64,000 nucleotides of DNA from Haloplanus sp. XH21 (GTDB lineage Archaea; Halobacteriota; Halobacteria; Halobacteriales; Haloferacaceae). The stretch spans positions 2,170,001 through 2,234,000 of the forward strand of contig NZ_JALLPL010000001.1 of the NCBI RefSeq assembly GCF_023276355.1, in the 5' to 3' direction. The notes under the pieces are model-generated. The model had not been told where the DNA came from and did not search any database. It worked only from the letters and a program-made list of their open reading frames with translations. Shown here piece after piece: positions 2,934 through 56,389 of the stretch (positions within the stretch are counted from its first letter, which is position 1; each line of letters opens with the position of its first letter). The position numbers and the translations under genes were made by a program.

Positions 2934-3012
2934 TACTGTCGGCTGTGAGTCTTTCAACGATTGCGCCACCCCGGGGAGGTGAATATCTTGATCCAGTTAC
3001 AGCCGACAGTAT
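2933..3012. repeat. Palindromic element, family A, copy 1
   Basis: Perfect 14-base terminal inverted repeat: ATACTGTCGGCTGT at 2933-2946 and ACAGCCGACAGTAT at 2999-3012, with a partly palindromic middle (CACCCCGG..GAATATCTTGA). A homologous element lies at 33636-33711. The left end overlaps the TGA of meaB. No ORF inside. It could fold as a long hairpin and act as a terminator, or be a non-autonomous mobile element. Confidence 0.75.
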
Positions 3013-33598: not shown

Positions 33599-33635
33599 GG
33601 ATGCGAGGCAAATACTTTCCGGCAGCGACCGCCTC

Positions 33636-33711
33636 ATACCGCCGGCTGTAACTGTTTCGAGAGGTTCGTCACCCCGGTCGAATCTCTTGACTGCCGCACG
33701 GCCGACGGTAT
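33636..33711. repeat. Palindromic element, family A, copy 2
   Basis: ATACCGCCGGCTGT at 33636-33649 and ACGGCCGACGGTAT at 33698-33711, arms 14 bases with two mismatches. The centre CACCCCGG and GAATCTCTTGA matches copy 1 at 2933-3012. It runs directly into a family-B element at 33713. Confidence 0.7.
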
Positions 33712-33712
33712 C

Positions 33713-33794
33713 ATACGGATTACTGTGACTGTCTTTCGGTGCCGCCGATCCGTCTTGGCGACCCACCGGTACTGACGTACAAGGAACCGTCTCA
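33713..33794. repeat. Palindromic element, family B, copy 1
   Basis: Starts ATACGGATTACTGTGACTG and ends ACCGGTACTGACGTACAAGGAACCGTCTCA. Homologous along most of its length with 34066-34147. Its right end covers the TGA stop of the CDGSH gene (33792-33794). Confidence 0.7.
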
Positions 33795-34013
33795 CTCCTC
33801 GAAGTCGAGGGAGACGCGCCGCCGCTCTCCGTCGACGTACTTGTACCGCGCGTCGGACGCTTCGTCCTCGGCCCGTTTGTGTGAACCGTCACAGAACGGA
33901 GAGTCCTCGCTCAGTCCACACAGACAGATCGCGATGTCGCCGTGTTCGTCGTCGATGTCGTCCGGCGTCAGCATCTTCGGTCCGGTCGCGGTGTGCGTGA
34001 CCTCTCGTGCCAT
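33792..34013 (-). CDS. CDGSH iron-sulfur domain protein (mitoNEET-like)
   Basis: 73 residues. The 2Fe-2S motif C-x-C-x9-10-C-D-G-x-H is seen in ICLCGLSEDSPFCDGSHK. Rest is acidic (LTPDDIDDEHGDI). No membrane anchor, so soluble. CDGSH proteins move electrons or clusters; role here unknown. Bracketed by two family-B palindromic elements. Confidence 0.9.
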   Translation of the reverse strand: MAREVTHTATGPKMLTPDDIDDEHGDIAICLCGLSEDSPFCDGSHKRAEDEASDARYKYVDGERRRVSLDFEE

Positions 34014-34040
34014 ACCGGGGGATAGCCGGAGGGACGCCTT

Positions 34041-34053
34041 ATACTGTCGGCCG
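34041..34053. repeat. Palindromic element, family A, single end
   Basis: ATACTGTCGGCCG matches the left arm of copies 1 and 2; the matching right arm is missing. Lies 13 bases before a family-B element, repeating the A-then-B order seen at 33.7 kb. Confidence 0.45.
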
Positions 34054-34065
34054 CGGCGGGAGTCA

Positions 34066-34147
34066 GACGGATTATTGTAACTGTTTCCCGTGGTTCGCTG
34101 GATCGTCCCAGCGCATCACCGGTCCTGACGTGCAATAAACCGTATCA
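34066..34147. repeat. Palindromic element, family B, copy 2
   Basis: Left GACGGATTATTGTAACTGTTT, right TGACGTGCAATAAACCGTATCA; the arms pair over most of their length around a short centre (GCTGGATCGTCCCAGC). The right end covers the TGA of the zinc-protein gene at 34145. Confidence 0.75.
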
Positions 34148-34372
34148 GTGCTTGTGGGTGAACAGGAGCGGGCTTCCGTCGTGAACGGTGACACAGATAT
34201 CGAGCGGTTCGATCTGTTCCAGGCTGGTCTCCTCGTTCTTGCAGACGACGAGGTCGTCGAACGGCTCGTCACAGACGGGACAGGCCACGGCGACCGTGTT
34301 CTGGTACAGTTTGATCTCGTCGTTCTCCTCACGGGGCGTCAGCGACGACACGAGCTGCTCGAAATCCTCCAT
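34145..34372 (-). CDS. Small zinc-ribbon protein (haloarchaeal)
   Basis: 75 residues, MEDFEQLVSSLTPREEN. One C-x2-C pair (VACPVCDEPFDD) and a further VCKNEE Cys; a treble-clef or half zinc ribbon is likely. C terminus PLLFTHKH adds two His that could complete a metal site. A GTG at 34378 is an alternative start. Families of this kind have been named after flagellar-cluster neighbours in halophiles, but no archaellum gene is near, so I assign no function. Confidence 0.75.
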   Translation of the reverse strand: MEDFEQLVSSLTPREENDEIKLYQNTVAVACPVCDEPFDDLVVCKNEETSLEQIEPLDICVTVHDGSPLLFTHKH

Positions 34373-34461
34373 GTTCACGTCTGACGCGTGCGACTACATA
34401 AATCCACGGCGCGAGCCCGTCATCGGTCGACGGGAGCGCGGCGAAAAACGAAGTCGGCCGC

Positions 34462-46084: not shown

Positions 46085-46170
46085 CTCATAGGAATTAGCG
46101 GAAGTCGTCAGAGATTCTCGCCGGGCCGTCACGGCGAGAATCTCTGGACAGTTGCGATAATCCCTATCAG
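46085..46170. repeat. Palindromic element, family B, copy 3
   Basis: 39-base arms (46085-46123 and 46132-46170) with 8 mismatches, the inner 15 bases CAGAGATTCTCGCCG perfect, 8-base loop GGCCGTCA. Outer arm (right, reversed) GATAGGGATTATCGCAACTGTCC matches the family-B arm GACGGATTATTGTAACTGTTT. Its right end carries the TGA of the nfeD-type gene. Confidence 0.75.
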
Positions 46171-53870: not shown

Positions 53871-54449
53871 ATGTCAGTCGACCGCCCCGGATTCTCCACT
53901 CTCGACCTGCCCGGCAACACGTACACCGTCAAGCAGTCGCTCGTCCGCAACAAGTACGCGGCGTACGACGAGAACGGCGAACTCGTCTGCCGCGCCAAAC
54001 AGAAACTGCTCAAGATGAAAGAGGAGTTCCCCTTCGTCGACGCCGACGGCGACCCCGTGTTCACCGTCAAGGCGGGCGGGATCCTCGATATCGCGGGGAA
54101 CTACGCCATCATCGACGCCGAAACTGGCGAGCGGATGGCCATCCTCGACAACGACTTCTCTCTCTTCCGGGACACCTGGACGATCCGGGACGGGAAAACG
54201 GAGGAACCGGTCGCGAAGATCAGTTCCCGCGGCACGCTCGTGACCCTCGCGCGGAACCTCCTCCCCTTCGGTGAACTCATCCCGCACAAATACGAAATCA
54301 CCGACCATCGGGGAACCCACGTCGGGGCCATCGACGGCCAGTTCTCGCTCCGAGATCAGTACCGCATCGTCATCGACGACGCCGAAACCGTCCCCAAAGA
54401 CGCCGTCGTCGCGTCCGCGATGGTCATCGACGCGATCCAGGGGAACTAG
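53871..54449 (+). CDS. LURP-one-related (Tubby-like fold) protein
   Basis: 192 residues. Beta-rich throughout: YTVKQSLVRNKYAAYDENG, LVCRAKQKLLKMKEEFPF, IIDAETGERMAILDND, and C-terminal RDQYRIVIDDAE. Matches the LURP-one/YxjI scaffold seen in bacteria and plants, which resembles phospholipid scramblases. TATA-like TTCATAAAC 27 bases before the ATG. The 90-bp repeat array starts just after its stop. Confidence 0.82.
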   Translation: MSVDRPGFSTLDLPGNTYTVKQSLVRNKYAAYDENGELVCRAKQKLLKMKEEFPFVDADGDPVFTVKAGGILDIAGNYAIIDAETGERMAILDNDFSLFRDTWTIRDGKTEEPVAKISSRGTLVTLARNLLPFGELIPHKYEITDHRGTHVGAIDGQFSLRDQYRIVIDDAETVPKDAVVASAMVIDAIQGN

Positions 54450-54471
54450 CGGGGCGTCTCACGGCGACAGC

Positions 54472-55121
54472 CGCTGTCGGTCGCGTGGGAACACGGTCGT
54501 TCCGCTTCGCTTCACTCCCTGCGTCCACGCTCCCGGGGCGCCTTCGTCCTACGGACTCAGTCGCTGTCGGTCGCGTGGGAACACGGTCGTTCCGCTTCGC
54601 TTCACTCCCTGCGTCCACGCTCCCGGGGCGCCTTCGTCCTACGGACTCAGTCGCTGTCGGTCGCGTGGGAACACGGTCGTTCCGCTTCGCTTCACTCCCT
54701 GCGTCCACGCTCCCGGGGCGCCTTCGTCCTACGGACTCAGTCGCTGTCGGTCGCGTGGGAACACGGTCGTTCCGCTTCGCTTCACTCCCTGCGTCCACGC
54801 TCCCGGGGCGCCTTCGTCCTACGGACTCAGTCGCTGTCGGTCGCGTGGGAACACGGTCGTTCCGCTTCGCTTCACTCCCTGCGTCCACGCTCCCGGGGCG
54901 CCTTCGTCCTACGGACTCAGTCGCTGTCGGTCGCGTGGGAACACGGTCGTTCCGCTTCGCTTCACTCCCTGCGTCCACGCTCCCGGGGCGCCTTCGTCCT
55001 ACGGACTCAGTCGCTGTCGGTCGCGTGGGAACACGGTCGTTCCGCTTCGCTTCACTCCCTGCGTCCACGCTCCCGGGTGCCTTCGTCCTACGGACTCAGT
55101 CGCTGTCGGTCGCGTGGGAAC
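54472..55121. repeat. 90-bp direct tandem repeat array overlapping the aspS 3' end
   Basis: The 21-base segment CGCTGTCGGTCGCGTGGGAAC occurs at 54472, 54562, 54652, 54742, 54832, 54922, 55012 and 55101, so 7 units of 90 bp (the last 89 bp because of one deleted base in the CCCGGG run). Units look identical apart from the ends. Read on the minus strand the 21-mer encodes the [10 protein letters not shown] tail of AspRS, and the TAG stop lies in the unit. All 90 bp, not just a short repeat, are conserved, so it is not a CRISPR. Confidence 0.95.
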
Positions 55122-56389
55122 AACACAGCCTCGCGGATATTGCCCAAGTCGAGCATCGTCATGACGAGACGCTCGACACCGTAGGCCCACCCGGCGTGGG
55201 GCGGCATCCCGTATTTGAACATCCGGGTGTAGTAGTCGAACTGCTCGGGGTCGAGCCCCTGCTGTTGGAACCCGGCTACGAGTTCGTCGTAGCGGTGTTC
55301 GCGCTGCCCGCCCGAGACGAGTTCCATCCGCGGATGCATCAGGTCGAAGCCCTTCGAGAGCTGCGGGTCGTCCTCGTAGTCCTGAATGTAGAACGGCTTG
55401 ATCTCCGAGGGCCAGTCGGTGATGAAGTAGTGGCCGCCCACGTCGTCGCCGAGCGCCTTCTCCGCCTCGGTCGGCAGGTCGTCGCCCCAGACGAGTTGCG
55501 TGTCGAGTTCGCCCGTGGCGTTGATGCGCTCGATGGCCTCCTCGTAGGTGAGGCGGGGGAACTCCTCCTCGGGCACGCCGAAGTCGTCGTAGCCGAGGAG
55601 TTCGAGTTCCTCTTGGCAGTTCTCGGCGACGCCCTCGTAGGCCGCGCGGAGCGTCCCTTCACAGACGTCCATCGCCTCGTGGTGGTCGACGAATGCCGAC
55701 TCGAAGTCGATCATCGTCGCCTCGTTGAGGTGCCGGGGCGTGTTGTGCTCCTCGGCGCGGAAGATGGGGCCGATTTCGAACACCCGCTCCAGACCGGAGC
55801 CGACCATCAGCTGTTTGAACAGCTGTGGCGACTGGTTCATGAAGGCCTCTTCGCCGAAGTAGGTGATCGGGAAGAGCTCCGTGCCGCCCTCCGTCCCCGT
55901 GGCGACGATTTTCGGCGTGTTGATCTCCGTCGACCCGACCGAGCGGAAGTAGTCCCGCACCGAGCGCAGGATTTCGCTCCGGATCTCGAAGATGGCCTTC
56001 ACCTCGGGCTTGCGGAGATCCAGCGTGCGGTTGTCGAGACGGGTGGGCAGTTCGGCGTCGACTTTCCCGGAGGGGTCGAGAGGGAGTTCGGGGTCGGCCT
56101 CCGCCAGCACGTCGACGGACTCGGGGACGAGTTCCAGCCCCGTCGGCGCGCGGGGTTCCTCTTCGACGGCGCCGGTGACGGCGACGACGCTCTCGCGGTG
56201 GACGCCGAGCCCCGTCTCCACGAGGTCGTCGTCCATCTCGTCTTTCTCGAATTTGACCTGCAGTTTGCCGGTCTTGTCCCGGAGGATCAGGAAGGCGATG
56301 CCGCCGAGGTCCCGGATTTCGTGGACCCAGCCGGCGACCGTAGCCGTTTCGCCGGCGGCGACGTCGGCCGCGTGAGTTCGGTTCTGCAT
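55088..56389 (-). CDS. aspS: Aspartyl-tRNA synthetase
   Basis: 433 residues, archaeal/eukaryotic-type AspRS. N-terminal OB anticodon domain [19 protein letters not shown], class II motif 2 ([16 protein letters not shown]) and motif 3 ([16 protein letters not shown]), ending in [10 protein letters not shown]. It may be non-discriminating; GatB further along the window supplies transamidation for Asn or Gln tRNA. The stop lies inside the first (rightmost) unit of the 90-bp array. Start MQNRTHAAD. Confidence 0.95.

Follow-up and report, generated by a model that had tools for sequence, protein, structure and literature searches.

Probable mobile palindromes resident on stop codons in Haloplanus and other haloarchaea

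The short palindromic elements that surround a CDGSH iron-sulfur protein gene in Haloplanus sp. XH21 very probably represent two families (A and B) of a single superfamily of non-autonomous, MITE-like mobile palindromes, which would be moved in trans, duplicate a TNA triplet of the target and be concentrated on stop codons. Both families are present in many copies, flanked by direct TNA repeats that in most perfect copies are the stop codon of a gene; the equivalent positions in relatives are empty, and one relative contains recent copies. From this distribution we infer a transposase, a 3-bp cut and selection acting as a filter. Among MITE-like palindromes, the residence on stop codons and the lack of a known transposase are new. 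A search of the open-access literature found no paper on stop-codon-resident elements, and the words "stop codon" are absent from a 2024 review of prokaryotic MITEs (PMC10969869).

The CDGSH locus and its counterparts in relatives

In the window (the whole 64-kb stretch of DNA that was analysed), the CDGSH locus is composed of the following features.

33634..33636, unstranded: left target repeat of A2 (TCA)
33637..33710, plus strand: A2, family A element of 74 bp (covariance model match, E 2.2e-19; TCA..TCA flanks)
33711..33713, unstranded: TCA common to A2 and B1, as from successive insertions
33714..33791, plus strand: B1, family B element of 78 bp with a decayed palindrome (covariance model match)
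33792..33794, minus strand: TCA that is the TGA stop codon of the CDGSH gene and the right target repeat of B1
33792..34013, minus strand: CDGSH iron-sulfur protein gene, 73 aa, a host gene and not cargo (PF09360, E 1.5e-9; same place in 12/12 Haloplanus genomes)
34039..34051, minus strand: GCCGACAGTATAA, 13 bases of the CDGSH promoter region that match an A end, either by chance or as a relic
34063..34065, unstranded: left target repeat of B2 (TCA)
34066..34144, plus strand: B2, family B element of 79 bp (covariance model)
34145..34147, minus strand: TCA that is the TGA stop codon of the DUF7385 gene and the right target repeat of B2
34145..34378, minus strand: DUF7385 protein gene, a host gene (PF24110, E 1.7e-36)

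A2 stands in tandem with B1, with one TCA between them, and B1 and B2 each end exactly at the start of a minus-strand stop codon (33792-33794 and 34145-34147, respectively). The stop codons at both B right ends were the key clue that led to the genome-wide pattern described below. A sequence-only reading of the locus had taken the stop codons as carried by the two B elements; the coincidence is indeed exact, but the stop codon is the right copy of the flanking TCA and lies outside the element. The same reading saw two B elements and two A pieces around the gene, with the A-then-B order repeated on each side. A2, B1 and B2 are real, but the second A piece is the promoter match GCCGACAGTATAA, which adds no length and whose position reads AGCACGTAAGG or GCGGTTAAGGG in relatives, and the repeated order is not established. 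About 0.2 such matches are expected by chance in 64 kb at <=1 mismatch, so that GCCGACAGTATAA may be a relic A end.

The gene order DUF7385 - CDGSH - DUF7527 is kept in 12/12 Haloplanus genomes, and the elements are absent from both sites of the locus in all 11 genomes other than XH21, which favors insertion over the old, fixed sequence that had been posed as its alternative. The DUF7385-CDGSH spacer measures 134 bp in XH21 versus 30-78 bp in relatives (121 bp in G011, which has an element of its own), and the CDGSH-DUF7527 spacer 212 bp versus 46-146 bp; without the elements, each counted with one of its repeats, the XH21 spacers come to 52 and 54 bp, matching the relatives. In G011, a third-family element (TAGCGTTCATCGTGACTGTTCACCGG...CCGGTACTGACTCACGATATTCACGC) with TGA flanks occupies the same DUF7385 stop codon, with CCCAGCACGTAAG directly after it, just as the empty G001 allele has; the stop codon was thus hit at least twice independently. 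Another relative, G008, contains an element in eight identical copies, each at a different site and flanked by perfect repeats, which indicates recent movement. In the same genome, L302 and L303 (about 1647050 and 1648318) have the same element and the same immediate flanks about 1.27 kb apart, probably because a gene was duplicated locally together with the element.

These comparisons bear on two other explanations. Transport of the CDGSH gene by a composite transposon, or by a duplicated A+B unit, had been proposed from the sequence, and the A2-B1 tandem on one side of the gene with B2 on the other would suit it; nevertheless, it is refuted by the empty alleles, which have the CDGSH gene in place between DUF7385 and DUF7527 in all relatives, and its probability is negligible. 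Additionally, B1 and B2 are only 73% identical, each being closer to copies elsewhere (81% for B1 and 86% for B2), and in other A-B tandems the two elements are 68-84% identical to those at the CDGSH locus, differences that point to independent events. Two such A-TNA-B tandems are located at C1:1155857-1156016 and C1:2035622-2035778, and in both B adjoins a gene, as in the window.

The elements could also be old, fixed regulatory hairpins (transcription terminators or stabilizers of mRNA 3' ends) and not mobile DNA, given their location just past stop codons, the strong folding of intact copies (RNA fold z-scores of about -7 to -12), the covariation between arms and the avoidance of tight tandem gene pairs (spacers of <20 bp in 3/48 pairs with elements at stops vs 55/134, p 3e-6). 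We consider this very unlikely in view of the absence of the elements from the locus in 11/11 relatives, the direct TNA repeats and the identical copies at unrelated G008 sites. B1, which is decayed and has lost a good hairpin, folds no better than shuffled DNA (z-score -0.38; -2.76 for B2), which speaks against a kept function at the CDGSH site. A terminator effect arising as a side effect after insertion is possible.

Element families, target repeats and distribution

Using covariance models, we found about 94 copies of family B and 36 of family A in the main contig of the Haloplanus sp. XH21 genome (G000, 2.94 Mb); since each family recurs tens of times in the genome, the elements at the CDGSH locus are not a matter of chance. 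The adjacent cox3 gene likewise has its closest named relatives in Haloplanus. The same models gave zero A or B elements in the other contigs (0.41 Mb), for which the chance probability is 3e-9 if copies are evenly spread. The contigs free of A and B are C2 (305 kb) and C3, yet a plasmid of another Haloplanus strain carries one element.

The elements are short (74-80 bp), non-coding and dispersed in about 130 copies. Both consensus sequences (TACTGTCGGCTGTAACTGTTTC...TTGATTGACTTACAGCCGACAGTA for family A and TACGGATTATTGTAACTGTTTACCGGTGGTTCGCTGG..CG..CCAGCGAACCACCGGTACTGACTTACAATAAACCGTA for family B) are near-palindromes of about 80 bp, with terminal inverted repeats (TACGG...CCGTA, TACTG...CAGTA) and pairing at most of the first 15 positions. 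The layout of a B element consists of TNA, TA-N8-TTGTA, an asymmetric box, ACCGG, an inner palindrome, a loop, the mirror image of these parts and again TNA. Several pairs of the stem covary (10, 29, 30, 35 and others), and the arms differ at a fixed box, where pairs 16, 18 and 19 are C.C, G.G and mostly T.T, pairing almost never. The central loop of B elements (columns 37-44) is found in two orientations relative to the asymmetric boxes, in about equal numbers, as would result from flipping of the inner palindrome. Families A, B, C and D have the boxes in common and differ in the outer ten bases and the core. The asymmetric inner box is AACTGTTT/AAGTCAGT in Haloplanus, AACTAATT/AGTCAATT in a second genus and AGCGATTT/GGCCGTAA in a third; in other genera, the letters of the box are changed and the layout is kept. 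No Rfam family matched the elements up to E 1.

Two further elements of the window lie away from the CDGSH locus.

2934..3011, minus strand: A1, family A, TGA..TGA flanks; the left TGA (2931-2933) is the stop codon of the plus-strand MeaB gene
46089..46166, minus strand: D1, third family in the window (TAGGGATTATCG...), TCA..TCA flanks; a minus-strand gene has its stop codon in the right TCA (46167-46169)

Family D also occurs at C1:108645-108722 and at L323 (near C1:1082172), with the same boxes and TNA repeats. A potential mobile unit is formed at L118:2001-2851 by two oppositely oriented B copies that have identical TCA repeats and are separated by 691 bp. The window additionally holds seven 90-bp tandem repeats (54365-55174), with identity up to 98%.

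Outside TACGG...CCGTA, the flanks read TCA..TCA, TGA..TGA, TAA..TAA or TTA..TTA, and the TNA direct repeats are perfect at 79/130 copies and at 8/8 of the identical copies in G008. The middle base of TNA is repeated and not complemented, which identifies the triplet as a duplicated target rather than an extension of the palindrome. The duplication could be anything from 1 to 3 bp long, depending on whether the T and the A are counted as part of the element, 3 bp being the natural reading. When target sites are aligned, the motif is GWC-TSA-GWC (core C-TSA-G, outer G..C).

Elements are present in 12/12 Haloplanus genomes and in 8 of the 28 genera sampled in the family, and also on plasmids of Halomicrobium and Natronomonas. 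When 80 haloarchaeal loci (681 kb in total) were scanned blind, two such palindromes emerged (in Halomicrobium katesii and in an unclassified Halobacteriales genome), both on stop codons.

Residence on stop codons, targeting and selection

Each of the four TNA triplets reads as a stop codon on one of the two strands and, in XH21, the repeat is the stop codon of a called gene in 63/79 perfect copies, in either gene orientation (genes were called with a custom codon-usage caller on the stretches around element copies). In the window, stop codons make up 17% of the non-coding TNA sites, and the excess of elements on them has a p of about 1e-34. The ten stop-hosting genes that were checked all encode Pfam domains (e.g. 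A-type ATP synthase, tRNA methyltransferase and FAA hydrolase), and in imperfect copies the intact repeat is often the one on the stop-codon side. The trend is also seen in other Haloplanus species and in three other genera (24/33 perfect copies on stops); in Halomicrobium mukohataei, an annotated GH2 gene ends at the base adjoining an element.

In the mechanism that we propose, a transposase acting in trans would make a short staggered cut at a palindromic target near GWC-TSA-GWC, and insertion would duplicate TNA. A stop codon is a good target because TGA fits the TSA core, and insertion there would rebuild the stop codon, leaving the protein unchanged and adding about 80 bp of 3' sequence. 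Copies away from stops would be tolerated less and lost, so that those remaining would be found mainly at the stop codons that end transcription units. At the CDGSH locus, B2 would have entered the DUF7385 stop codon and B1 the CDGSH stop codon, with A2 and B1 inserted side by side, in either order.

A stop-like target motif together with purifying selection is, in our opinion, the simplest model, extra targeting being possible and not needed. Dedicated targeting, in which the integration machinery reads stop codons or gene 3' ends directly (e.g. through a host factor), beyond the TSA motif and selection, draws on the excess that survives motif weighting: with occupied sites left out of the background (including them would be circular), the expected share of non-coding insertions at stops is 17-32% and the observed share 80%, an excess of 2.5-4.6 fold. 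It also draws on the young identical copies of G008, none of the eight being demonstrably inside coding sequence, which comprises about 59% of the motif-weighted sites (p 9e-4). However, just three of these eight copies are on stops, the rest being intergenic (versus 63/79 for the older XH21 copies; Fisher p 0.018), usage within 20 bp downstream of a stop is close to expectation (beyond that distance, sites are depleted about five-fold), and what is left can be explained by purifying selection, which makes dedicated targeting unlikely. One apparent coding-sequence insertion in G008 (L295) most likely precedes the actual start of a lipoprotein-like gene.

Mobilization, known systems and significance

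Several searches were directed at the mobilizer. In G008, an exact search with the 12-base left box of active copies retrieved the box only in short elements, and in XH21 a search with a 10-base box retrieved elements or chance matches only, with no autonomous partner in either case. In 1.8 Mb of loci, the only long pairs of matching ends were pairs of separate short copies, and the six matches of the B left box in viral contigs were all due to chance. Exact-box and end-pair searches of this kind would miss an autonomous partner with diverged ends.

The elements resemble MITEs in being short and non-coding, in their terminal inverted repeats, target-site duplications and high copy number, and in their movement, seen in the 11/11 empty alleles and the eight identical copies; they differ from them in that no cognate IS was found, in the nearly full-length palindrome and in the location on stop codons. 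The IS1031 group of IS5 produces a 3-bp TNA duplication, the same kind of target duplication as here, which we take as a lead only. The movement of REP elements is single-stranded and proceeds without duplication. REP/BIME sequences with RAYT proteins are likewise intergenic palindromes, with conserved stem mismatches as in our elements, but the Haloplanus elements are 80 bp long with TNA repeats, whereas REPs are 20-40 bp long, most with a GTAG or CGTC tag (PMC3733652). The PATE elements, which are IS605-related, are also short haloarchaeal mobile repeats with palindromes, but they are without terminal inverted repeats and target duplications (PMC3119063), both of which are found here. The small mobile repeats (SMR) of Haloquadratum walsbyi are haloarchaeal elements of about 80-110 bp with terminal inverted repeats unrelated to known transposons and with unexplained mobilization, which insert into other mobile elements and produce no target duplications (PMC3119063). 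Unlike these, the Haloplanus elements have TNA repeats and sit on stop codons. It is unlikely that the elements described here form a widespread haloarchaeal class of palindromic mobile elements with dedicated targeting of stop codons or 3' ends, an undescribed transposase family and an inner box that diverged with the host lineage.

With a target core that is a stop codon, and a codon that is rebuilt on insertion, the elements would be able to insert by simple means, and almost without harm, into a genome dense in genes, while supplying mRNA 3' ends with ready-made hairpins. The conserved box offers a handle for finding the missing transposase, and comparing the share of young and old copies on stop codons allows a direct separation of targeting from selection.
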